DNA from: Isotricha intestinalis
Lineage: Eukaryota > Ciliophora > Litostomatea > Vestibuliferida > Isotrichidae
Assembly: GCA_023807065.1 (NCBI GenBank)
Contig: JAJJLU010003649.1
Span: 1-41,909 of the forward strand
Direction: 5' to 3'
DNA length: 41,909 nt
This document shows, one piece after another, positions 11,195-37,228 of the stretch (positions are counted from its first letter, which is position 1; each line of letters starts with the position of its first letter). The position numbers were made by a program, and so were the translations under genes. The notes under the pieces were generated by a model that did no database searches, was not told the origin of the DNA, and was given only the letters and a program-made list of their open reading frames with translations.

Positions 11195-14100
11195 ATGGAT
11201 GATAAAAAGAAAAATGTTTCAAATACAAAAACTATTACTCTAAAAATTAAACCAAAGCAAATTCCTATAAAAAATTTTGGAATTTTTTCTGCTTTTTCTT
11301 CAAATTCAAATTCATTTAGACAATCTTTAAAAACATCTTCAAAAGTATCTCCTGATAAAAATAATATCAACAGTATAAATAAAATATATAATAATAATAA
11401 TGAAGAAATGATTACAGAAGGAAAAGAAATTGAGGAAAAAACATTAGAATTTATAAAAAGGAAATTTATTAAAAAGAAAAATTCAAATTTTTTAAATTAT
11501 ACAAATCCAATAAATCATCTGAATAAAATATATGGAAAGAAAGATAATAATGCAATTAAAACTCATATTACAAATACCAATAGTATAAGTATGAACACAA
11601 GTTTACAAAATAATACAAAAATTTATTCTGAAGATAAAAGCAAAACTTTAAATCATACTTTAAATAAAATTATTATTTCTCCTCGAGATGAAATAATTAA
11701 AGGAATTAATGAAATAAATGAAAATAATGAAAATAATGAAAATAATATTATTAACCATAATAACTGTAATAATAATGTTAAAAGTAATAATAACAATAAT
11801 AAACCCAGATTAGGGAGTGGTATACATGAAAAGAAAATTTCAATGAAAATTTTTAATAAATTAGTTAGTAGTTTAAATAAAAATAAAAAGGATTTAATTG
11901 GAAGTGTGAATCTTATTCAACAACAAAAAAAAAGAATGGCTCAAACTGCATTAAATTCAAGAAAAAATTCAAATGAAAAAAGAGTATCAAAATTAATAAA
12001 TCATAAAAAAGGAAATAAAATAAATTTTTATAATAATGAAAATAATATTCAAAATGAATATAAAAACTCTGTTAAGAAGGAGAAACAACAAAGTGAAAAT
12101 AATTCAATATCAAATTCAATGAATATTAATAATATAACAACAAATCAAATAAATAATAATAATAATTCAAATATTAGTAATACTTTAAATAATAATAATA
12201 ATAATAATAATCTTAGTAAAGATAATATTCAAAATAATAAAATTGTAAATCAAAAGTCTTTTTTTCCTTTAACTGCTCCGATGTCAAAACAAAATTCAAA
12301 AGCAAATTCAAAACAAAAAAATAATCCAAATAATAATAATATTAATAATAATAGCAAAGAAAAAAATAATAAAATTGAAAATAAGTTAACTTCTAAAATT
12401 GAAAAATTAGGTTTAAATAATATTAAAAAAGGAAACTATTCTTCTGCAAATTCACCAGGTCATTATTTTATAAATAATATTAATAATAATAATAGTAATA
12501 ATAAAGAAAGTTCACTTGGGAAGAAAAAAAATATAAAAAATGTTGATATTAAGAATTTAATATATAAAAAAAATTTAGGTTCAATTAATAAATTATTAAA
12601 TGAATTCAAAAATGAATTAAGTAATAAACAATTTTTAAAAGAACAAACAAATAAAATAATAAAAAAACAGAAAAAAAACAAAAAAATAAAAAAAGAAAAA
12701 ATATATAATCAAAATCATAAACATAATAGAAATCCAGAGCCAAATAATTATTTAAATAATTCAAATACATCATTATTATCAACAATGAAAGATTCAAATT
12801 ACTATTTAAAAGAAAGTGAAATGTTATCAAAAAGTATTAAAGATTATTATAATAAAAATAAAGAATATCCAAAGACAGATTTATCATTTTACAAATTTGG
12901 AAGAAAAATAGGAAAAGGAGCTTTTGGAAAAGTAAATTTAGGTTTAAATATTTTAACAGGAAGAGTAGTTGCAATAAAATCATTTAATAAAGAAAATATA
13001 ATAAATGAAATATCGAAGAAAAAAATATTATATGAAACAAATTTAATGAGAAAATTACGTCATCCTTCAATCACAAAAATTTTAGAAACTTTTGAAACGG
13101 AAAAATATATGTTAATTATAATGGAATATATTTCAGGAGGAAATTTACAATCTTTTGTGAAAAAAAGGAGAAAATTAGGAGAAAAAACAGCAAAAATATT
13201 ATTTAAACAAATAATAGATGGAATAAAATATATTCATAGTCAAAATATAGTTCATAGAGATATAAAATTAGAAAATATTTTAATAGATTTGAATAATAAT
13301 ATTAAAATATGTGATTTTGGAGTAGGAAAATTAATAAATCAAAATTTAATATTACATGATCAATGTGGAACTCCAGTTTATATGGCTCCAGAAATAATAA
13401 AAGATAAAGGATATTTAGGTTTTCCAGTTGATATTTGGTCAAGTGGTATTGCTTTATATATTATGTTAAGTGGTAATGTCCCTTTTAATAGAGGAAAATT
13501 AAATGATTTACAATATGAAATTTTAAATACTCCTTTAAATCCAATTAAAAATATTAGTAATGAAGCTAATGATTTATTATTTAATATTCTAAATAAAGAC
13601 CCTAAAAAAAGATTTAATGCTGATGATATTTTAAATCATCCTTGGTTAAAAATGAGTGATGTGGAATTTAATATGAATTTAAATGTTAATAAATATCATT
13701 TATTTACTAATGCTGAAATGATTCTTTTAAGTAAAACTCATATTGATTATAGGAAAGCTCCTAAAGGAGAATTAGGAGAAAATTTTACTTTGAGAAATTT
13801 ATATACTATTGATGATAATGTTGATAAGAATAATAAAAATATTGAAACTAAAAGTATTATCTTAGCTCCTTATAATACTATACTCACTGATGATGAAAGT
13901 TATAGTGAAGAATTAGATAATATTAATCCAGAAATTAATACTGAAAATGATATTATTAAATTTAATGGGAAAGTTAAGGAATTTAATATTAATTATGAAT
14001 TAAATAATAATGAAGAAATTGATAATGGAATGTTAATTAATTCTAAAAATGATTTAATTTGTGAAGAAGTTAATAATTCTAAAAATAATATTAGTAATAG

Positions 14101-14302
14101 TGGGATTGTTGTTAAAAGTAATATGCAAAATAAAAATAATAATAATAATAATTCTTTTATTATCAATGATTATTTTGTCAATATGGTAGTTGATTTAGGA
14201 TATAAGAAAGATTATGTTATTAAATGTTTAGAAAAAAATGAATTAAATCCTGCTACTGCTGCTTATTATTTATTTTCAATTTATGAAAACATCAAATCTT
14301 AA
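11195..14302 (+). CDS. CAMK/MARK-SNF1-like Ser/Thr protein kinase with C-terminal UBA-like segment
   Basis: 1035 residues. Residues 1-560 are Asn/Lys/Ser-rich and probably disordered. A complete kinase domain spans about 564-825. It has the glycine loop GKGAFGKV, beta3 Lys in VVAIKSF, VHRDIKLENIL, CDFGVGKL, GTPVYMAPEI, and DIWSSGIALYIMLSGNVPF, and it ends KRFNADDILNHPWL. All catalytic residues are present, and the Thr of GTPVY sits where activation-loop kinases are phosphorylated. The last 45 residues (VNMVVDLGYKKDYVIKCLEK, then NPATAAYYLF) look like the UBA domain found after the kinase domain in MARK/SNF1-type enzymes, but here about 165 residues separate the two. It likely phosphorylates Ser/Thr in polarity, energy or cytoskeletal signalling; the substrate is unknown. 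It converges on the CK1-CDPK gene. Confidence 0.9.
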   Translation: MDDKKKNVSNTKTITLKIKPKQIPIKNFGIFSAFSSNSNSFRQSLKTSSKVSPDKNNINSINKIYNNNNEEMITEGKEIEEKTLEFIKRKFIKKKNSNFLNYTNPINHLNKIYGKKDNNAIKTHITNTNSISMNTSLQNNTKIYSEDKSKTLNHTLNKIIISPRDEIIKGINEINENNENNENNIINHNNCNNNVKSNNNNNKPRLGSGIHEKKISMKIFNKLVSSLNKNKKDLIGSVNLIQQQKKRMAQTALNSRKNSNEKRVSKLINHKKGNKINFYNNENNIQNEYKNSVKKEKQQSENNSISNSMNINNITTNQINNNNNSNISNTLNNNNNNNNLSKDNIQNNKIVNQKSFFPLTAPMSKQNSKANSKQKNNPNNNNINNNSKEKNNKIENKLTSKIEKLGLNNIKKGNYSSANSPGHYFINNINNNNSNNKESSLGKKKNIKNVDIKNLIYKKNLGSINKLLNEFKNELSNKQFLKEQTNKIIKKQKKNKKIKKEKIYNQNHKHNRNPEPNNYLNNSNTSLLSTMKDSNYYLKESEMLSKSIKDYYNKNKEYPKTDLSFYKFGRKIGKGAFGKVNLGLNILTGRVVAIKSFNKENIINEISKKKILYETNLMRKLRHPSITKILETFETEKYMLIIMEYISGGNLQSFVKKRRKLGEKTAKILFKQIIDGIKYIHSQNIVHRDIKLENILIDLNNNIKICDFGVGKLINQNLILHDQCGTPVYMAPEIIKDKGYLGFPVDIWSSGIALYIMLSGNVPFNRGKLNDLQYEILNTPLNPIKNISNEANDLLFNILNKDPKKRFNADDILNHPWLKMSDVEFNMNLNVNKYHLFTNAEMILLSKTHIDYRKAPKGELGENFTLRNLYTIDDNVDKNNKNIETKSIILAPYNTILTDDESYSEELDNINPEINTENDIIKFNGKVKEFNINYELNNNEEIDNGMLINSKNDLICEEVNNSKNNISNSGIVVKSNMQNKNNNNNNSFIINDYFVNMVVDLGYKKDYVIKCLEKNELNPATAAYYLFSIYENIKS

Positions 14303-14609: not shown

Positions 14610-17600
14610 TTAATTTCCATCTTCAATATCTTCTTCTTCAAAACTAAAATTTTCAATATCTAAATTTTCACTTTCAAAACTTCCTTCTTCCATATTATTA
14701 TGAGATGCATTCATAACTCGGATAAAATCATCAAAATCAATTTCATCTTTATTATTATCATTTAATTCTTCAATAATTTTTTTCCATTGTTTAATATCTC
14801 CTCCGAAAATATTTTTAATTTCTTGAACAGTAATTTTTCCATCACCATCTTTATCAATTAATTTAAAAGTTTTTTCTAATTTATCATCAGTCATTAATTT
14901 CTTAGAATCCATAGTTGCAGTTAAAAATTCAATATATGAAATATCACCATTACCATCTAAATCAATAGATCCAAAAATTTTATTAGTTAAATTGATTGCA
15001 TCTTTTTCACCATAAATTTTAATTAATTCTTTTAAAAAAACTTTTTTTGTAACTTTTCCAGTTCCATTAACATCAAATTTATTAAATATTGAATTTAATT
15101 TATCTTCTTCATGTTTTAAATCAAAATGATTTACCATAAATTGTAATACTGCTTGTTTAAATTTATTTATTTTTATAAAACCTGCCATTTTATGAACTGC
15201 TTTTATTTTATTTAAAGTTTCTAAATTTGATATCACTGAATTTGCAAATATATTTTTAAACCATTTATGTTTTAAACATAACTCTGCATTTGGTCTTTTT
15301 TTTGGGTTTTTAGATAACATTTTTTTAATTAAATCTTTACATGAATTTGAAATATTTTGCCATTCATTTTGTTTAAATTTGGGTTCTGTAAATTTAATAT
15401 TATGTAATATTTCATCATCATTTTTTCCTTCAAAAGGAGGATATTCACAAATTAAAATATATATAATAATTCCACAAGACCATATATCACATAATTCATT
15501 ATAATTTTTATTTATTACTTCTGGAGCAACATAATAATGTGTTCCTATAAAATCTGTTAATTTTTTTCCTGGCCAAAATTCAGTTGCTGTTGAAAAATTA
15601 ACAAATTTAATTTTATATTTATCTTCTATTTTTTTAATGACTATACTTTCTGGTTTAATATCTCTATGAACTATATTTAATGAATGTAAATAATTGACTG
15701 TTAATAAAATTTCCTTCATTACTTGACAAGCTTCTTTTTCATGAAATGATTTATCATTTACTATATATTCAAATAATGGTTTTCCATCAATATTATCACA
15801 TATTACATAATAATTTTCATTATCATCAAATATTTCAAATATTGTTATTATATTTGGATGAGATAATTTTTTTAATATTTCTATTTCTTTTTTATTGTAT
15901 TTTGTCTTATTTATTATTCTCATTGAACGATATTGATGTAATTTTTTATGAAGAACCCTTTTATATATTCCTAATGATTCATCTAATTCTAAATCTTCTA
16001 ATATTTCATAATCATCTTTTATTTGATCTGTTTTTACTTCTAATAATTTTTCTCTTGATAGATTAAATTTCATAAAATTAGCATCTCCTAAATTTATATC
16101 TAAAAGCTGCTTTGACCTTCTTCTTGCTAATAATAAATTTTCATTTCCTGAAAATGAATTTTTTTTACTTTTTTTATTTAGAAGTAAATCAGATGAAGAT
16201 AATTTTAATCCTAGAAATTTACTTGATTTTAACCTTCTACTTTCTAAATTTGGAGTTAAATGTGAAATATTTTCATTTTTATTATCAGAATCAAAAGAAA
16301 ACCTAGTTCTTGAATTTTTTTTTTCTATCAATGGATTACCTTTTAAACTAATAACTCTTTCAATTTTAATTTTTTCTGATTTTTTTGTTTTTTCAGGTTG
16401 ATGAATTCTAACAGTTTTAATAGGAGAAACACAATTGTCTTTATTAATAATTTTATGTATTTTTTCATCTATTTTTTCAATAATTTTATTATCATTATCA
16501 ATTTGAAAATTATCAATACCATCAGGATTAAAATCTAATTTTAAAGTATTATCAGAATTAGATGAACTAGATTCAGAAATAGAATAAGTGTTTTTACTTT
16601 TTGAAATTTTACTATTTGATTCAGAATTTTTAGAACTAACTTCAACTTCATATTGAGGAATATTTTCATTAGATTTTTCAATACCAAAAAATTGAACCTT
16701 TTTTTTGACTTCTTTAATTCCAATATCTTTTTTTTCAGTATTAGTATTATTTCGATTAATGTATTTTATTCTTTTACTGCTACTTTTATTAGAAAGAGAA
16801 ACTCTAATAGTATTGTCCAAATGACTACTACATATATTACAATTTTTAGGAGAATTTAATGAATGATGAATACAATCAGTTCCTTTAAATCTATATTTAT
16901 CCCAAATATGATTTATATCATCAAAAGTCCAATCAAATTTTAAATAATCTCTATCTAAATCATATATTGCTTGACAAGTAGTTAACATATTAATAAAAAA
17001 ACCTCTTAATAAATCATAATCTGGTTTATCTTCAAATTTTAAACTTTTAACATATTTAAAATAAAAAACCATTTCTTGAGGTAAATTAAAGCATAAAATT
17101 TCAACTGGAATTTGTAATTTTTTTTCCATTATTTTCTTAAATTTTTCTCCAATTGCATCATCTTTTAATCCTTGCCAAGGAAGACTTCCTTTTAAAAATA
17201 ATACTAAAACATAACCAATACTTTCTAAATCATCTCTTCTACTTTGTTCAATTCCCAAATGAGTATTAATCGATATATATCTTGCAGTTCCTATTAAATT
17301 TCTTCCTTCTCTATAAGGAATATGTTGTTGATTTTTTTTCATTATATATTTTCTACTTAAACCAAAATCTATCAAATGAATAACATTAGCATTCTTTCTG
17401 TGTCCAATTAAAAAATTTTCTGGTTTAATATCTCGATGAATTATACCACGATTATGAATATATTCAATTCTATTTATCATTTGAATTGCTAATAAACAAA
17501 CAGTTGAAAGAGTAAATTTATTCATTGAACAATATTTAAATAAATCTATTAAATTTGGTCCTAAAAATTCAATAATCATATAATAACCTGAATTATCATT

Positions 17601-17987
17601 TAATATTCCCATTCCATAAAATTTAGGAACTCCAATAACTGTTTCTTGTGGTAAAGCTATATTTCCAGTTAAATCTTGTTTTGTTGATATATTTAATAAT
17701 GTTGTATAAATTTTTGATTCTACTTTTAATTGAGGTGGTTTTTTTTCATTCAATGCCGAACATTTTTCTTTTTTAATTATTACTTCTATATTATCTCTTA
17801 AATTATATGATAAATATATTTTTCCGAATGAACCAGCGCCTATTAAATTTAATATTACATAATTATTTGCTATTAAATGTTTAAAATTTAAATTTTTCTG
17901 GGTTTTCTGCTTTGATGTAGTATTTCCTTTTAAAACTCGACTATTTAAAGTTTTTATATTTTCTTCTTCTGTAATGATTTCTGACAT
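14610..17987 (-). CDS. Casein kinase 1 fused to a degenerate CDPK with EF hands
   Basis: One uninterrupted 1125-residue frame with two kinase domains. Domain 1 (about 41-320) is CK1: GAGSFGKIYL, Lys in VIIKKE, IIHRDIKPENFLIG (HRD about 179-181), LIDFGLSRKY, and the CK1 signature GTARYISINTHLGIEQSRRD. All catalytic residues are kept. A Ser/Asn/Lys-rich linker follows (about 380-665). Domain 2 (about 670-935) is CDPK-like, with DIWSCGIIIYILICEYPPF, a junction segment and EF hands near 972, 1006, 1043 and 1078. In domain 2 the glycine loop is lost, beta3 Lys is Arg690, HRD is kept (774-776) but the metal Asn is Ser (KPES), and DFG is NFS (797-799), so it is probably a pseudokinase. EF2 (DLDGNGDISYIE) and EF3 (DKDGDGKITVQE) are canonical; EF1 has Val at position 12 and EF4 is weak. 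Confidence 0.9.
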   Translation of the reverse strand: MSEIITEEENIKTLNSRVLKGNTTSKQKTQKNLNFKHLIANNYVILNLIGAGSFGKIYLSYNLRDNIEVIIKKEKCSALNEKKPPQLKVESKIYTTLLNISTKQDLTGNIALPQETVIGVPKFYGMGILNDNSGYYMIIEFLGPNLIDLFKYCSMNKFTLSTVCLLAIQMINRIEYIHNRGIIHRDIKPENFLIGHRKNANVIHLIDFGLSRKYIMKKNQQHIPYREGRNLIGTARYISINTHLGIEQSRRDDLESIGYVLVLFLKGSLPWQGLKDDAIGEKFKKIMEKKLQIPVEILCFNLPQEMVFYFKYVKSLKFEDKPDYDLLRGFFINMLTTCQAIYDLDRDYLKFDWTFDDINHIWDKYRFKGTDCIHHSLNSPKNCNICSSHLDNTIRVSLSNKSSSKRIKYINRNNTNTEKKDIGIKEVKKKVQFFGIEKSNENIPQYEVEVSSKNSESNSKISKSKNTYSISESSSSNSDNTLKLDFNPDGIDNFQIDNDNKIIEKIDEKIHKIINKDNCVSPIKTVRIHQPEKTKKSEKIKIERVISLKGNPLIEKKNSRTRFSFDSDNKNENISHLTPNLESRRLKSSKFLGLKLSSSDLLLNKKSKKNSFSGNENLLLARRRSKQLLDINLGDANFMKFNLSREKLLEVKTDQIKDDYEILEDLELDESLGIYKRVLHKKLHQYRSMRIINKTKYNKKEIEILKKLSHPNIITIFEIFDDNENYYVICDNIDGKPLFEYIVNDKSFHEKEACQVMKEILLTVNYLHSLNIVHRDIKPESIVIKKIEDKYKIKFVNFSTATEFWPGKKLTDFIGTHYYVAPEVINKNYNELCDIWSCGIIIYILICEYPPFEGKNDDEILHNIKFTEPKFKQNEWQNISNSCKDLIKKMLSKNPKKRPNAELCLKHKWFKNIFANSVISNLETLNKIKAVHKMAGFIKINKFKQAVLQFMVNHFDLKHEEDKLNSIFNKFDVNGTGKVTKKVFLKELIKIYGEKDAINLTNKIFGSIDLDGNGDISYIEFLTATMDSKKLMTDDKLEKTFKLIDKDGDGKITVQEIKNIFGGDIKQWKKIIEELNDNNKDEIDFDDFIRVMNASHNNMEEGSFESENLDIENFSFEEEDIEDGN

Positions 17988-19975: not shown

Positions 19976-20915
19976 ATGGTTTCCAAAGAGCCATCCCTTG
20001 ACAAAATAATAGAGAAGCTTCTATCAGTAAAAAAGTAGAAAAAATATATAAATAATATTATTTAGTAAGCCAGGATCAAAAGAGGTGAATTTAAGTGAGC
20101 AAGAGATAAAATTTTTAATAACAAAATCTAAAGAAATATTTATGTCTCAACCAACATTTTTAGAACTAGAAAGTCCAATATCAGTATGTGGAGACACACA
20201 CGGACAATATCCTGATTTATTAAAATTATTTGAAGCAGGAGGATTTCCTCCAGAAGCAAATTATTTATTTTTAGGAGATTATGTAGACAGAGGAAAATAT
20301 TCTTTAGAAACAATATGTTTACTTTTAGCTTATAAAATTAAATATGATGAAAACTTTTTTTTATTAAGAGGAAATCATGAATGTGCTTCAATAAATAGAA
20401 TTTATGGTTTTTATGATGAATGTAAGAAAAGATATAATTTAAAAATATGGAAAAGTTTCATTGATGTATTTAATTGTCTTCCAATAGCAGCATCAATTGA
20501 TGATAAAATATTATTAATGCATGGTGGTTTATCTCCAGAATTAAAAAATGTAGAACAATTAAAGAAAATAATGAGACCAACTGATGTTCCAGAAGAAGGA
20601 TTATTATGTGATTTACTTTGGAGTGATCCTGATTTGAATTGTGATGGATGGGGACCTAATGATAGAGGAGTTTCTGTTGTTTTTAATGAAAATGTGTTAA
20701 AGAAATTTTTAGAAAAAAATGATTTAGATCTTATTTGTAGAGCTCATCAAGTCGTTGAAGAAGGATATGAATTTTTCGGGGATAGAGAATTAGTCACTGT
20801 CTTTAGTGCTCCTAATTATTGCGGAGAATTTGATAATGCTGGAGCTATGATGGTTATTGATGAAAATTTAATGTGTAGTTTTAAGGTTATTAAAAGTAAA
20901 GGAGATGATGAATAA
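19976..20915 (+). CDS. Protein phosphatase 1 catalytic subunit
   Basis: Exon 1 (19976-20034) encodes [20 protein letters not shown]. Exon 2 (20066-20915) encodes the rest, 302 residues in all, the normal PP1 core length. The metal and catalytic motifs are intact: GDTHGQ, GDYVDRG, RGNHE ([17 protein letters not shown]), [27 protein letters not shown], and [12 protein letters not shown] with [14 protein letters not shown]. These are PP1-specific rather than PP2A-like. PP1 removes phosphate from Ser/Thr with two metal ions, and targeting subunits choose its substrates. The long unstructured PP1 tail is short here (ends KSKGDDE). A PP1 inhibitor-2-like gene lies about 7 kb away. A GTG at 20085 would be a false start, since the upstream exon supplies the conserved LDKIIEKLL helix. 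Confidence 0.97.
20035..20065 (+). other. Intron, 31 nt, GT-AG
   Basis: Intron of the PP1 gene. It begins GTAGAAAAAA and ends AATATTATTTAG. It splits an Asn codon (AA|T) and rebuilds the conserved run [20 protein letters not shown]. An in-frame TAG lies at the exon-intron border if it is not spliced. Confidence 0.95.
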
Positions 20916-21599: not shown

Positions 21600-24500
21600 A
21601 TGGATGTAGAGATAGAAGAAATAGATTCAAATCCAGCTCCAAAAGAAATGAAATTGAATGAAAAAAAATATTCAGAATATCATTTGCAAGCAGAAATGGC
21701 TAAGAAAGCATTAGAAGATCAAGAAGAGAGAGAGAAAGATCCTTTCGACAAAAAATTTGAAAGATATAGAGCTGGGAAAAAAGGTAAAAGTGATGGTTTA
21801 AATGATAAAATTAAAGGCGCTGGAGTTGGTGATTGGAAAGATCAAAAATTAACAAAATTATCATTTTTTGAAAATATGAGAAAAATTTTTTTAGATAAAA
21901 ATCAAATATCAAAAACATTTCCAACAGTTAATATAGATTATAATAAAATTCCTGAGAAAATATTAGAATTAGAAGAAGGAGCATTACCAAAAAATTTAAC
22001 ATCATTTCAATTAGATTACATAAATAAAATGGGAAATGATTTAGAAAGAGAATATTTAGAAAATGGATTATCAAAAGAAGAAGTAGAATTACGTCAAAAA
22101 ACATATGGTCCAAATGCATTACCAGAACCAAAGAAAGTTCCAGGAATAGTAAAATATATAATTGAAATTACATCAGTGTTTTCAATATTATTATGGATTG
22201 CAGCAATATTATCTTTTATAGCATATAGTTTAAATCCTGAAGATTTAAGTAATATGTGGTTAGGAGTTGTTATTGCTATTATTATATTACTAACAGGAAT
22301 GTTTTCTTATTTTCAAAATGAAAAAAGTTCTGATATTATTGATTCATTCAAATCATTTAATGCTGCTTCTGTTATAGTTACTCGAGATGGGAAAGAACAA
22401 ACTATTCCTAGTCAAAATGTAGTTAAAGGTGATGTAGTTCATATTCACATGGGTGAGAAAGTCCCTGCTGATTTAAGAATATTCACTATTAATGGAGATT
22501 TACAATTTGATAATAGTCCCTTAACTGGGGAATCTATTGCTGTAGGTGCTACTAAGGAATGTGGAGAGAAAGGAAGAGAAAATGCTTTGGAAGCTACTAA
22601 TTTAGCTTTCTTTTCTACTAATTGTAAAGAAGGTTCTGGGGTTGGAGTTTGTATTAAAATTGGTTCTGAAACTTTCATGGGAAAAATAGCTGATTTAGCT
22701 TCTAATGCTTCTTCTGGGGAAACTACTCTACAAAGGGAAATTAATAATTTTATCTTTTGGATTGCTTTAGTTGCTATTTGCTCTGGGTTATTATTCTTCT
22801 TTATTGCTCTTGGTATTGGATATGATATTATCACTAATGTTATTTTTTCTCTTGGTATAGTTGTTGCTAATGTTCCGGAAGGACTTATTTCTACTGTCAC
22901 TGTTGCTTTGGCTATTACTGCTAAGAAAATGCTTAAGAAACATATAATGGTTAAAAATTTACAAAGTGTTGAAACTTTAGGAAGTATTACTTGTATTTGC
23001 TCTGATAAAACTGGAACTCTTACTAAAAATAAAATGACTGTTGTTCATGTTTTTTATGATTTGGAAATTAAGAAAACTAGAGAAGATCAAAGAAATTTAA
23101 GAAATGCTGATAATCAAGATATTCCTATGGAAATGTTTGATATTACCGATCCTTCATTTAATTTATTTAAATTTGCTGGAGTTTGTGGTTCAATAGGTGA
23201 ATTTATTACCTCAACTCCAGAAGATTATCTTCCAGTAACACAAGATATAAATAAATATAAGAAAGAACATCCCGAAGCAACAATTGAAGAATTAAAAGAT
23301 TTAAAGGAAAAATTAAGAGAAAAATATTCTCCTCAATATATGAAAGAATACGAATCAAATATAGATGATAGATATACAAATACAGATGCATCTGAAAGTG
23401 GAATAATTAAATTTTTTGAGAAAATAGAACCAATTCAAAAAACAAGAAATGAATATCCTCTTTTTTTCCAAAATGATAATCCAGTATCAATACCATTTAG
23501 TTCGGATTTAAAATATGCATGTTTCATGAGACAAGCCCCAGATAAATCATTTATATTAGCAATGAAAGGAGCTCCAGAGAGAATAATGGCTCGTTGTTCT
23601 ACATATTTATTAAATGGTATTGAAATGCCAATTGATGATACATTCAATGAAAAATTCAGAGAAGCAAACCAAGTATTCGCATTAAAAGGTGAGAGAGTAA
23701 TAGGACTTGCATATATGAAATTACCAAAAAAGGATTTTCCTCCTGATTTTGAATTTAAATTACAGAAAAGTGATAAAACTCATCAGAGAAAAAAAGGAGA
23801 AGATCCAGTAGTGAACTTCCCACTTCGTGGTTTATGTTTCGCAGGTATGGTTGCAATGGAGGATCCACCTCGTGATGGAGTAAAAGAAGCAATAGAATTA
23901 TGTCATAAAGCTGGAATTAAAGTTATTATGGTAACAGGTGATCAATCATTAACAGCTGCTTCAATTGCACATCAAATAGGAATTATTAGTGATATTGATG
24001 ATACACCTGAATTAATACAAAGAAGAGAAAATTTACCCACTTTAGAAGATGCTGAAGCTAAAAGTAATACTATCATTATTGAAGGAACTCGTCTTCAAGC
24101 TATGTTAGATAAAGATTCCTTAATGAGTGATGATAATCCTAGTAAAAATTCATTTTTACGTAATTGGATTATGAAAAGAGATGTTGTCTTTGCGAGAACA
24201 TCACCAGAAAATAAATTAACTATTGTAAATGCCTGTCAACAATTATCTCATATTGTAGCTGTTACTGGAGATGGAGTTAATGATTCACCTGCAATTAAAA
24301 AAGCTGATATTGGAATTGCAATGGGAAAAGTAGGAACTGATGTTGCAAAAGATGCAGCTGATATTTTATTATTAGATGATAATTTCCCAAATATAATAAA
24401 AGGAATAAAACAAGGAAGAGTAATTTTTGATATTTTAAAGAAAATTATAGGATATAATATGAGTTCAAATATGCCTGAATTAATACCATTTTTAGCTTTT

Positions 24501-25424
24501 GTCGTTGTTCAGATTCCTCTTCCAATGTCAACAATATTAATATTATGTATTGATGTTGGAACTGATGTTTTCCCAAATTTAACTCAAAGTTACGAGCATC
24601 CAGAAACAGGATTAATGGAACGTCCACCTAGAAATTGTAAAACAGAGAAATTATGTACAGCAAAATTATTTTTATTTGGATATTTATGTACAGGAATATT
24701 AGAAACTTTCGCATGTTTTTTAACATATTTTGTAATATTAAATGATTATGGTTTCCGTGCATCTAATTTACCATTTTTTTCTTTTCTAAAAGGAATAGAA
24801 CCAGCAAGTCAAGATTATTATAATCCATATGATAGTGATTTCAAAGGAAATTCTCGTGCATTTCTAAGTAAATATGCGGAATTACTGGGATTATATGGTG
24901 AATCTTATGATATATATGTTAAATCAAAGAGAAGAGAACCTAATTGGAATGGAGATTCAGATTTACATTATGATTTAAGATTATTCTATCCTGATAAACC
25001 CGAAAGTTTTTGGGGTGATTGTCATTTCGATTCTCGAGGACAAAGTTATGATGATTATGTTTGTTATAGAATTGAAGCTTTAAGACATTCAAATGGTGCT
25101 TTCTTACTTTCTGCTATAATATTGCAATTCGCCAACAGCTTTAATTATAGAACTAAAGAATTAAGTATGTTTAAACATAAAATGGATAATTGGTATTTAG
25201 TTGGAAGTATTGTCTGGGAATTTATTCTAATTTCTCTTATTCTTTTTGTTCCTGGATTAAATACTGCTTTTGGAACTAGAGCTATTAGAGTTGAACATTA
25301 TTTTATTACTTTAGCTTTTCATGTTACTCATTTTTATTATGGGGAAATTGTTAAATTTTTAATCAGACATTCCAGAAGACCTGATGGAAGTCCTGGATTT
25401 TTTAGAAGATATTTCTTCTATTAA
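21600..25424 (+). CDS. Na+/K+-ATPase alpha-type P-type ATPase (IIC)
   Basis: 1274 residues against about 1020 in animals. The motifs run in order: LTGES (actuator), NVPEGL (M4), CSDKTGTLTKNKM (phosphorylated Asp), a KGAPERI nucleotide pocket, MEDPPRDGVKEA, MVTGDQSLTA, TGDGVNDSPAIKKADIG. The M5-M6 cation ligands match Na+/K+ pumps: SSNMPELIPF and CIDVGTDV keep the Asn, Glu and both Asp. Extra length sits in a long charged N-terminus (about 110 residues), an N-domain insert (ITSTPEDYLPVTQD to about SPQYMKEYE) and a large M7-M8 extracellular loop, where the beta subunit binds in animals. The end (SPGFFRRYFFY) resembles the usual ETYY end. It should exchange Na+ for K+ across the plasma membrane at the cost of ATP. 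No beta-subunit gene is visible in the window. Confidence 0.95.
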   Translation: MDVEIEEIDSNPAPKEMKLNEKKYSEYHLQAEMAKKALEDQEEREKDPFDKKFERYRAGKKGKSDGLNDKIKGAGVGDWKDQKLTKLSFFENMRKIFLDKNQISKTFPTVNIDYNKIPEKILELEEGALPKNLTSFQLDYINKMGNDLEREYLENGLSKEEVELRQKTYGPNALPEPKKVPGIVKYIIEITSVFSILLWIAAILSFIAYSLNPEDLSNMWLGVVIAIIILLTGMFSYFQNEKSSDIIDSFKSFNAASVIVTRDGKEQTIPSQNVVKGDVVHIHMGEKVPADLRIFTINGDLQFDNSPLTGESIAVGATKECGEKGRENALEATNLAFFSTNCKEGSGVGVCIKIGSETFMGKIADLASNASSGETTLQREINNFIFWIALVAICSGLLFFFIALGIGYDIITNVIFSLGIVVANVPEGLISTVTVALAITAKKMLKKHIMVKNLQSVETLGSITCICSDKTGTLTKNKMTVVHVFYDLEIKKTREDQRNLRNADNQDIPMEMFDITDPSFNLFKFAGVCGSIGEFITSTPEDYLPVTQDINKYKKEHPEATIEELKDLKEKLREKYSPQYMKEYESNIDDRYTNTDASESGIIKFFEKIEPIQKTRNEYPLFFQNDNPVSIPFSSDLKYACFMRQAPDKSFILAMKGAPERIMARCSTYLLNGIEMPIDDTFNEKFREANQVFALKGERVIGLAYMKLPKKDFPPDFEFKLQKSDKTHQRKKGEDPVVNFPLRGLCFAGMVAMEDPPRDGVKEAIELCHKAGIKVIMVTGDQSLTAASIAHQIGIISDIDDTPELIQRRENLPTLEDAEAKSNTIIIEGTRLQAMLDKDSLMSDDNPSKNSFLRNWIMKRDVVFARTSPENKLTIVNACQQLSHIVAVTGDGVNDSPAIKKADIGIAMGKVGTDVAKDAADILLLDDNFPNIIKGIKQGRVIFDILKKIIGYNMSSNMPELIPFLAFVVVQIPLPMSTILILCIDVGTDVFPNLTQSYEHPETGLMERPPRNCKTEKLCTAKLFLFGYLCTGILETFACFLTYFVILNDYGFRASNLPFFSFLKGIEPASQDYYNPYDSDFKGNSRAFLSKYAELLGLYGESYDIYVKSKRREPNWNGDSDLHYDLRLFYPDKPESFWGDCHFDSRGQSYDDYVCYRIEALRHSNGAFLLSAIILQFANSFNYRTKELSMFKHKMDNWYLVGSIVWEFILISLILFVPGLNTAFGTRAIRVEHYFITLAFHVTHFYYGEIVKFLIRHSRRPDGSPGFFRRYFFY

Positions 25425-34587: not shown

Positions 34588-37228
34588 TCATTCATAGGAA
34601 ATTAAATTATTTTTACAAATTTTCGGAACATTAATAAAACTATTTTTCTTTCTAATATTATTGATTTTATCATCATCAAAAACAAAATATTTTTCTATTT
34701 TTTCATTTCCAAGACAAAGGAATTTTAAATGAGGAGAAGAATAAAGTTTAAATATTTCCCCATTTGGAATTTCTTTAATTCTTCTTTTATTATTTTTTAC
34801 AATTACTTTACATTTGGAAGATTGAATAGGACATTCACAATTAATTTGAATAAAAGGATGTTCTAAAACTTCTTTAATATTCATTCTATCATTAGGATTT
34901 TTTTTTAATAAACCTAAAATATTATATAAAAAATATACCTTCAACAAAATTTTTTGCTTCTTCAGAAATATTTTTCCAATATTTATCAGGGAAAGAAACT
35001 TCTTCATTTAAAATTTTTTTTTCAACTTCTTTAACATTTTCATCATTAATTTCTTCATTATGAAAACTATAATTATAAAAATAATTATCATTACTATTAC
35101 TATTATTATTATTATAATTATTAAAATGGTCATAATAAGGTAAATTTCCAGATAATAAAAAATAAGATATAACACCAAGAGCCCATAAATCAATTTGTTT
35201 ATTAATTGGTTTTTTTAATAAAAATTCAGGAGGAGAATAAGGAAGAGTTCCAATACCATATCCACAATAATCACCTTGTCCAATAAATTGACCAGAAAAA
35301 AAATCTAATAATCTAATTTCCGCATTTTCACTATCATCAGTCATTAATATATTTTCTAATTTTAAATCACCATGAATTATTCCATATTGTTGTAAATAAT
35401 ATATTATTATTGAGATTTCCCTTATTATTTCAGATACTCTCTTTTCACATAATTTATTTTTTCTCTTTTGAAAATATGATAGTAAATCACTTCCTTTATA
35501 ATATTCAGTTATTTTATAATAATTATCACTATTTTCAAATATATCATATACTTTCCCTATATATGGATGATTTATTATTTTTAATATTTCTATTTCATTT
35601 CTTAATTGAGTTATATCCAAAAAATTCATATCTTCTTTTGACATTATTGTAACTACTACTTCTTCATTTGTTATTTTATTTATCCCTTTTTTTATTAAAC
35701 CAAATTTTCCTTCTTCTATTGTTTTCTTTAATTCATATTTTTCTTTTATATTTATATATTTTACTATTGCTTTTTCTAAGTTATTTACTAAAGATAATAA
35801 TTCATCTTTTGATTCAATAAATAATGATATTATTTTTTCTGATGATATTAAATTTATTCTATATAACAATTTATCTTTAAATATTATTTCATTTTCTATT
35901 TTATAATTTATATTTGTTAAATTATTAATTGCAACAAAAGCAAGATCATTTATTTTTTTATAATAAAATAGGTCTTTAAAGCATAAAACACAAAAAAATT
36001 TTTTCATTTTTTTTTCATCAATTAATTTATAAATATAACCTGAATAATTTCCTTTTATTTTATCTGGAATTTCTTCAATCATATTTTCAGATTCTTCTTC
36101 ACTTGATTCTGTAAAATTATCATCTGAAAAAGATAAATATGTTTCATTATATTCTTCATCATTTAAATCTGATATTTTGTCAAAAGTATTTTTACTATGA
36201 TTATTATCATTATTATTATTACTTTTATTTACTAAAGAATTTATTTTTGTTTTATATGAATTATGTTTTTTTTGAATTTTTCTTTCAAATTTTGTTTCTT
36301 CTTTTTTATTATTTTTTTCTCTTTCTAAATTATCACCTATTATTTTATTTAAATTATCTTCAATATTATTCATTGTAAATTGATATGATAATAATCTATT
36401 TTTATTTCTTATATCAACATTATCTATTTTATTTTTATTAAAATTTAAAATTGTTTTTTTTGGTTTATTTTTACATACAGCTTCAATATATTGATAATAA
36501 GTTAGTAAACCATAATTAGGTTTAAATAAAGTATTTTGTGAAGGACCTTTAATAAATTTACTTTTATCTTCAAAATGAATAGATTTAATATTTTGACTTT
36601 TTTCTAAATTATCTAAAATTTCTATAGTCTTTTTATTAAAAGGACTTTTTTCAAAGATGAAAATAATTAAATATAAAAAAATATCTGAGTTTTGATTTTC
36701 AACAATAAATTTAAATTCATTTTCATCCAGATATTTTTTTCCTTTAAAAATAAAATCTAATTTATTATATAATTCTTCTTGGGTTTCAATTCTATTTTCA
36801 AATTCATCACTTTGATTTTTACTACTTATTTGGGGTCTATTTAAAGGAATATATGATAATAAAACTCTAATATCTTCTTTTGAAATTTTATTATTTTTAT
36901 TAAAATCATACATTTTAAAAATAAAAGAAATTAAATTTTCATATTCTTTAGTATATAAAAGCATCATATTATTTACAAAGTTTTTTTCAACAATACAATT
37001 TGAATAAGATGAAAAAATAGAAAATAATTGTTCTTGAATTAATCCTGGTAATTCAAAGTATTTTGCAAATGTTATTTTATTTATTCCTTTATTTCCATTT
37101 TCACTTCTTGATGATAATTCTTTCCAAATATATACTAAATAAGAACGGAATCCAATTATGTTTTTTATTCTATAAATATTGTAAATTTTATAAAAATCTA
37201 TTTTTTCTAATTCATTTATTGTTTCCAT
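34588..37228 (-). CDS. EF-hand, PH and pseudokinase protein
   Basis: Two exons (37228-34939 and 34913-34588) give 871 residues. N-terminal EF-hand-like repeats are visible near 106 (YDFNKNNKISKEDIRVLL). A PH domain (about 392-492) has SGYIYKLIDEKKMKKFFCVL and ends SLVNNLEKAIVKYI. A kinase fold spans about 503-795: EEGKFGLIKKG, VTIMSKED (beta3 Lys is Thr527), IIHGDLKLENIL (HRD Arg is Gly; Asp621 kept), LDFFSGQF (DFG is DFF, 642-644), SPPEFLLKKPINKQIDLWAL. Exon 2 restores the C-lobe LLKKNPNDRMNIKEVLEHPF. Loss of the beta3 Lys and the DFG Gly points to a pseudokinase. The order EF hand, PH, kinase recalls membrane-recruited, Ca2+-responsive kinases; here it likely works as a scaffold. TGA stop. 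Confidence 0.85.
34914..34938 (-). other. Intron, 25 nt, GT-AG
   Basis: Begins GTATATTTTTT and ends TAATATTTTAG. Splits a Gly codon (G|GT) and rejoins VEG with LLKKNPNDRMN, the conserved C-lobe helix of kinases. It is among the shortest introns seen in eukaryotes. Confidence 0.95.

Follow-up and report, generated by a model that had tools for sequence, protein, structure and literature searches.

The window analysed here is a 41,909-nucleotide stretch of the ciliate Isotricha intestinalis (contig JAJJLU010003649.1), and the gene under study occupies positions 14610-17987 of its reverse strand. Read from an ATG at 17987 to a TAA at 14610, the gene forms one open frame of 1125 codons with zero internal stops, and its product joins a casein kinase 1 (CK1) domain to a unit organized like a calcium-dependent protein kinase (CDPK). 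Along the 1125-amino-acid chain, the CK1 domain (residues 39-353) is followed by a linker of 305 residues, a CDPK-type pseudokinase (residues 659-911), a junction and four EF-hand positions (Table 1). Pfam recognizes two Pkinase stretches together with EF-hands, and a phmmer search against the PDB matches CK1 delta at residues 39-353 (E ~1e-84) and CDPKs at residues about 680-1094, the best of them being 3lij (E 1e-91).

The CK1 half holds a complete set of catalytic residues, and its SIN motif replaces APE in the stretch RYISINTH. The second half keeps the CDPK order of kinase, junction and four EF-hand positions and lacks the glycine loop, Lys, Asn and DFG of a competent kinase. Because its glycine loop reads ELDESLG, Arg690 stands at the beta3 Lys position, Ser781 replaces the metal-binding Asn and NFS replaces DFG, it is classed as a pseudo-CDPK and not as an active CDPK, and it is predicted to be without catalytic activity. 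The HRD Asp, the alpha-C Glu and the APE region are still present. EF-hand loops were scored as canonical with D at position 1, D/N/S at 3, D/N/S/G/E at 5 and E/D at 12. By this rule EF2 and EF3 are canonical and likely to bind Ca2+, and EF1 and EF4 are degenerate. The original prediction for this locus had described a single chain with an intact CK1 domain, the same catalytic losses in the CDPK part and canonical EF2 and EF3 loops, all of which agree with the present analysis; the broken state of EF1 and EF4 went unmentioned there.

Table 1. Features of the CK1-pseudoCDPK gene in the window
Feature	Positions	Strand	Basis or remark
CK1-pseudoCDPK fusion gene	14610..17987	(-)	1125 aa, one open frame, TAA stop
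CK1 catalytic domain, residues 39-353	16929..17873	(-)	K72, E90, HRD D186, N191, DFG D207, SIN motif
I215-M216, CK1 activation segment	17340..17345	(-)	I and M in 9/9 clade members holding CK1
Low-complexity linker, residues 354-658	16014..16928	(-)	short conserved blocks inside
Linker block EKSNENI	16659..16679	(-)	majority block in alignment A1; in place in 9/20 genome copies
Linker block SDNTLKLDF	16530..16556	(-)	T481 and F486 invariant in A1 (33/33); strict T...[DEN]F in 18/20 genome copies
Linker block EKIDEKIHKI	16449..16478	(-)	E.ID..I in 19/20 genome copies
CDPK-type pseudokinase domain, residues 659-911	15255..16013	(-)	Pfam, PDB match, family alignment
Destroyed glycine loop ELDESLG	15969..15989	(-)	catalytically complete members mostly G.GSYG
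Arg690, beta3 Lys position	15918..15920	(-)	alignment
GKP for GGE, residues 735-737	15777..15785	(-)	alignment
HRDIKPES, HRD Asp retained, metal-binding Asn to Ser781	15645..15668	(-)	alignment
NFS for DFG, residues 797-799	15591..15599	(-)	alignment
CDPK junction, residues 912-955	15123..15254	(-)	aligns with active CDPKs
EF1 loop DVNGTGKVTKKV	15039..15074	(-)	degenerate, likewise in 154/163 other family members scored
EF2 loop DLDGNGDISYIE	14928..14963	(-)	canonical, residues 1009-1020
EF3 loop DKDGDGKITVQE	14820..14855	(-)	canonical, residues 1045-1056
EF4 loop NDNNKDEIDFDD	14727..14762	(-)	degenerate; canonical in the other family members scored

The fusion family and its dead clade

The fusion had been presented as one unusual gene, a view that does not survive a search of the organism's own genome (57.3 Mb, 2153 contigs). 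Twenty places have a CK1 domain whose reading frame continues into linker and CDPK sequence, and 18 of these are free of the catalytic losses. Sixteen run through both halves, three (C1525, C426 and C1000) are cut by contig ends and one, C927, is frame-broken near EF1. Protein searches extended the family, with 356 relatives of the window protein at E <=1e-40 and 475 of the C1083 copy at E <=1e-60; the best 120 of each together comprise 156 different proteins, 155 of which carry both halves. Among the best 120 of the 356, P0001-P0007 are 70-98% identical to the window protein across 99-100% of its length and, with the half-length record P0021, represent eight clusters for 145 member sequences. 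The resulting census alignment of 176 sequences (20 genome copies and the 156 listed proteins) contains many near-copies, such that its counts are not independent: P0001 is a near-copy of the window gene and P0003 one of the paralogue C900, and among the 166 sequences that fall outside the window's own clade, many are likewise near-copies of one another. Reduction of the first 140 sequences at 88% identity left 39, of which 31 have a complete second kinase and eight belong to the window's clade, these eight having been retained whatever their identity. As a separate observation, the frame break in C927 (L018) perhaps marks a recent pseudogene or a sequencing error.

Several lines of evidence bear on whether the window frame is truly one gene. 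For each segment of 75 codons, the six frames were compared by a codon score that had been trained on 16 further frames of the window. The fusion frame scores highest in 15/15 segments, those of the linker among them; one reverse frame scores positive as well in 12/15, as a mirror of the fusion frame. Against C900, the nearest paralogue (75% identical), all ten indels are multiples of three, and P0001 is a full-length record, 98% identical to the window protein, on a separate 3668-base contig. The evolutionary distances of the two halves are correlated (Mantel r 0.80 over all 39 fusions and 0.71 over the 31 whose second kinase is complete, with 0/2000 permutations as high), which indicates that the halves have mostly stayed together. 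That two genes were taken as one, or that an assembly joint lies in the linker, might be argued from P0021, a record of only half length. Set against the recurrence of the layout at 20 genome places, the full-length records on other contigs, the coding signal across the linker, the in-frame indels and the correlated divergence, this explanation is extremely improbable, and sequence comparison excludes an assembly accident in practice. Misassembly and the occurrence of the halves as separate genes had been named beforehand as grounds for abandoning the fusion; the former is contradicted, and for the latter no close single-domain versions were found, the fusions standing apart from the sampled single-domain kinases in both trees described below.

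Catalytic loss sets one group of ten sequences apart, referred to here as the dead clade, which consists of the window gene, C900, P0001-P0007 and P0021. The glycine loop, DFG (to NFS), Asn (to Ser) and GGE (to GKP) are lost in 10/10 members and the beta3 Lys has become Arg in 9/10; the exceptions within the clade are P0006, in which this Lys persists, and P0007, with Ala at one loop position. Outside the clade, no scored catalytic residue of the second kinase is changed in 166/166 sequences (C426 being cut before HRD), and a search for further independent losses found none among the 176 sequences, with the same proviso for C426. Of the genome places, two (the window gene and C900) fall in the dead clade and 18 outside it; loss of CDPK catalysis as a family-wide trait was rejected, being confined to the window's clade. 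A second kinase that still works in an unorthodox manner deserves consideration, since CASK reportedly carries out metal-independent phosphotransfer. The retained HRD Asp, alpha-C Glu and APE region, the purifying selection on the domain and the beta3 Lys of P0006 are all compatible with such activity. However, the glycine loop, the Asn, the Asp and Gly of DFG and the Glu of GGE are jointly gone in all ten members, and the beta3 Lys in nine; these losses exceed those of any unorthodox kinase known to us, and residual activity of this kind is considered improbable.

The Lys, Glu, HRD Asp, Asn and DFG Asp of CK1 are all kept in the 175/175 sequences that hold this half (P0021, the remaining one of the 176 aligned, is without it), which suggests a catalytically active CK1. 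Minor variants include Ala for the first loop Gly in C1202 and C911, DYG for DFG in C927 and HKD for HRD in C1279. Each EF-hand loop was counted only in sequences long enough to reach it. On this basis, 10/10 dead-clade members and 162/162 others scored have canonical EF2 and EF3 loops, while EF4 is canonical in 0/10 of the clade versus 162/162 of the others and EF1 in 0/10 versus 9/163. Since the loss of EF4 would leave one Ca2+ site per lobe, a lower affinity of the C-lobe and a changed set-point may be expected, and the Ca2+ set-point is probably shifted relative to the three-site paralogues with two complete kinases.

Two short blocks within the linker, T...[DEN]F and E.ID..I, are candidate contact sites across the fusion family. 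The latter sits behind the former in 17 of the 18 genome copies with the strict T block. A third block, KtNENnP, had been derived as family-wide from alignment A1 and was dropped, being in place in only 9/20 genome copies. A shuffled control gave 0.16 (NEN), 0.14 (T) and 0.07 (E.ID) matches per linker, which is a rough yardstick, since the shuffled linkers had 307 residues and the T pattern was less strict, whereas the search spanned 430 residues.

History and selection of the CDPK module

Quick trees of each half were built from the 39 fusions, with the four cut or broken genome copies, P0021 and near-copies omitted; support is given by the Shimodaira-Hasegawa-like approximate likelihood ratio test (SH-aLRT) without bootstrap, no root was inferred and several single-domain rows are long. 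In the CDPK-half tree, which includes 19 of the 20 listed single-domain CDPK places, the fusions separate from these kinases (SH-aLRT 99), and the dead clade is recovered as a single group (100) whose long stem measures 0.83 changes per site and whose sister is not resolved. The CK1-half tree, which takes in 7 of the 8 best single-domain CK1 matches, likewise separates the fusions (98) and unites the dead clade (100), which it joins to five fusions with a complete second kinase (99). The simplest reading of these trees is one fusion of two live kinases, followed by expansion and by one later loss of CDPK catalysis. The direction is taken as loss and not gain because CDPKs are generally active kinases and all other fusions are live. 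Thus two live kinases were probably present in the ancestor, and in one lineage the CDPK became a conserved non-catalytic two-site Ca2+ module on CK1.

The long stem at the base of the clade could also be expected of a decaying paralogue on its way to becoming a pseudogene, in which the CDPK half is no longer selected. Yet the loss is common to all ten members found, the window copy has neither stop nor frameshift, and the pseudokinase is conserved to much the same degree as complete kinases. Among seven clade members (not counting the fragment P0021 or the near-copies P0001 and P0003), pseudokinase identity is 81-93% with a mean of 85.8, compared with means of 87.5 for CK1 and 57.7 for the linker. 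When pairs are binned by CK1 identity, the pseudokinase and the complete kinases average 85.4% (2 pairs) versus 77.3% (949 pairs) at 80-84%, 83.9% (13 pairs) versus 85.4% (144 pairs) at 84-88%, and 88.4% (3 pairs) versus 89.6% (167 pairs) at 88-92%. The ratio of nonsynonymous to synonymous substitution rates (dN/dS), taken from the single pair of the window gene and C900 and by the Nei-Gojobori method (NG86) only, is 0.28 for CK1, 0.56 for the linker, 0.25 for the pseudokinase and 0.27 for the junction with the EF part. Clade identity like that of complete kinases, together with the low dN/dS, indicates that the dead module is selected and not decaying; decay is very improbable.

Clade-specific changes were defined at sites that are at least 90% conserved in the 31 complete members and hold another residue in at least 8/9 clade members. 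They are concentrated in the second kinase (22/118) and occur in CK1 as well (8/154), with 3/14 in the junction, 5/53 in the EF part and 0/7 in the linker. Those in the second kinase include the glycine loop, A688, K690, G736/E737, N781 and DFG, which on alignment and general kinase anatomy amount to the nucleotide site plus an acidic substrate and ribose contact. The changes in CK1 include K215I and N216M in the activation segment, where catalytically complete relatives have K in 28/31 and N in 30/31; such substitutions would be expected if CK1 had adapted to a new partner surface.

Possible coupling of calcium to CK1

CK1 enzymes are usually constitutively active, and we know of no direct switching of CK1 by Ca2+. 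The favoured interpretation, to which a probability of about one half is assigned, is that the window protein is a Ca2+-responsive CK1 in which the CDPK part, no longer an enzyme, would act on the intact CK1 domain as an allosteric or docking unit operated by Ca2+. At rest, the pseudokinase and junction could be packed on the CK1 domain or the linker, or could hold the protein with a partner. On a rise in Ca2+, the ion would fill EF2 in the N-lobe and EF3 in the C-lobe, the calmodulin-like part would grip the junction helix and the module would change shape, thereby altering substrate access to CK1. Because the second kinase can pass no phosphate by ordinary phosphotransfer, any such effect on CK1 would have to come by contact alone, by relief of a block or by location.

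In CDPKs described so far, the kinase is held inhibited by the junction while Ca2+ is low, and Ca2+ binding displaces the activation domain as a whole; a single ion in the N-lobe is described as enough to bring about structural change (PMC5528832). In PfCDPK3, EF1 is broken and EF2-4 are usable, a pattern found in most of the catalytically complete fusion paralogues; PfCDPK3 binds three ions, and Ca2+ binding by its C-lobe is tight enough for the authors to regard the N-lobe as the switch (PMC5528832).

A scaffold or targeting role offers the main alternative, in which CK1 would stay constitutively active and the dead CDPK would either bring it to a location or substrate that depends on Ca2+ or pair up with dual-kinase paralogues. 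The complete residue set of CK1 and the constitutive activity usual for CK1s are in keeping with this role; the long and variable linker (58% mean clade identity) suits tethering, the retention of EF2 and EF3 also agrees with it, and the genome offers possible partners at the 18 fusion places that lie outside the clade. The fixed clade changes in the CK1 activation segment weakly suggest, however, that CK1 itself is affected. Pure tethering is judged rather unlikely, and direct control of CK1 is preferred over it.

Several observations weigh against direct control of CK1 by the CDPK module. The linker is long and mostly variable, which would equally suit two domains working apart. P0021 (633 amino acids) is a dead-clade member without the CK1 half, and is either truncated or a sign that the dead CDPK can stand alone; its gene call starts in the linker on a 3695-base contig, where fission and truncation are indistinguishable. 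P0006 still has the beta3 Lys. In the 84-88% bin of CK1 identity the clade is looser than the complete members in the junction (74.3 versus 79.5%) and the EF part (78.7 versus 82.7%). Of all parts, EF4 is the one most clearly looser in the clade (64.9% versus 78.3%, the latter over the broad CK1 range of 78-92%). Lastly, the dN/dS estimates derive from one pair and one method.

Surroundings of the gene and relation to known systems

Other genes of the window include further kinases. The adjoining frame at 11195-14302(+) encodes a 1035-amino-acid protein kinase (kinase domain 566-818) whose N-terminus is long and rich in Asn and whose C-terminus looks UBA-like by eye. At 34922-37228(-), a protein of 768 amino acids has a weak EF-hand match, under the Pfam cut-off, at 103-125 ahead of a CAMK-like kinase at 498-765; an EF-hand-then-kinase order has been reported as new for PITG_08008 of Phytophthora (PMC3019232). 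A P-type ATPase of 1274 amino acids lies at 21600-25424(+), closest to the alpha subunits of Na,K-ATPase and H,K-ATPase, and a 257-amino-acid Metallophos (calcineurin-like) phosphatase frame lies at 20142-20915(+). The latter starts almost at its domain edge, looks PP1/PP2A-like by eye and probably has an exon upstream. Among 20 long window frames, 16 end in TAA, two in TAG and two in TGA. In the 2-kb flanks of C900, no frame of at least 60 amino acids matched the window beyond the gene itself, antisense frames and weak kinase matches, these pointing to window kinases around 13046-13651 and 35138-35584. When viral and prokaryotic contigs were scanned, the matches listed (19/19 and the best 80 of 576) were distant kinases only, with best segments of <=41% identity, and are uninformative on the fusion.

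The pattern CCCCAANCCCCAANCCCCAA (CCCCAAN) has 956 and 863 matches in the genome, compared with 0 and 1 when the pattern is reversed as a control. Almost every listed place reads CCCCAAT; many lie at the very start of a contig, and C15 has the repeat at both ends. The GGGGTT telomere repeat has 0 matches in the genome, and the window's own ends have no CCCCAAT repeat. For Entodinium caudatum, a rumen ciliate, (CCCCAAT)n has been reported as a putative telomere repeat (PMC6211341). The repeat and the stop-codon usage are taken to indicate that the assembly is macronuclear and belongs to a trichostome, or rumen-type, ciliate.

The components of the fusion are familiar from other kinases. CDPKs, members of the CAMK group found in apicomplexans, ciliates and plants, share the kinase-junction-four EF-hands order and provide the best PDB match to the second half; the window protein differs in its destroyed kinase active site, its broken EF4 and the complete CK1 domain in front. 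Its first half resembles CK1 delta/epsilon in its complete catalytic domain and in having SIN for APE, but bears a CDPK module after a 305-residue linker, whereas known CK1s are described as single-domain kinases (PMC4177888, PMC3019232). The closest likeness is to the dual-kinase CK1-CDPK fusions of the same ciliate, which share its architecture, linker blocks and grouping against sampled single-domain kinases and differ in having a complete second kinase (166/166, one cut) and a canonical EF4 (162/162 scored). RSK and JAK have established the principle that tandem kinase folds in one chain can include a regulator, catalytic or not, of the other fold, the regulator in JAK being a pseudokinase; those tandems combine AGC and CAMK or tyrosine kinases in another order and have no EF-hands in the chain. 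Another lineage-specific fusion of a kinase to a calmodulin-like part is SCAMK of Metakinetoplastina, in which SnRK3 is joined to calmodulin-like domains; its abstract describes one kinase and mentions neither a CK1 nor a pseudokinase (PMC5924475).

The prediction that such a fusion was undescribed is consistent with the literature so far as it is openly accessible: no CK1-CDPK fusion is named in the open-access papers searched and the direct phrase returned 0 results. Both parent families are expanded in ciliates (PMC3341644), and Paramecium has about 101 CDPK-class genes (PMC3019232). A CK1 search of the Isotricha genome gave 125 matches, with the 20 fusion places at the top and other kinases at the bottom, an observation that points to a large CK1 expansion. 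Only 3 of the 120 listed protein records are named, each as 'calcium-dependent protein kinase', and this automatic name hides the CK1 half.

An expanded family that couples CK1 to a Ca2+ sensor, with one branch beyond ordinary phosphotransfer, offers a convenient case in which to compare how regulation passes to a pseudokinase. If the favoured interpretation is true, setting the dead clade against its dual-kinase sisters would separate phosphotransfer-dependent from mechanical coupling. The finding also bears on Ca2+ signalling in rumen ciliates, whose CDPKs have been proposed as targets for protozoa control (PMC6925433). It is tentatively suggested that rumen-type ciliates evolved a Ca2+-coupled CK1 family and that in one old branch the CDPK, stripped of its ATP and substrate contacts and retuned from three Ca2+ sites to two, may have become a purely allosteric Ca2+ switch for CK1.

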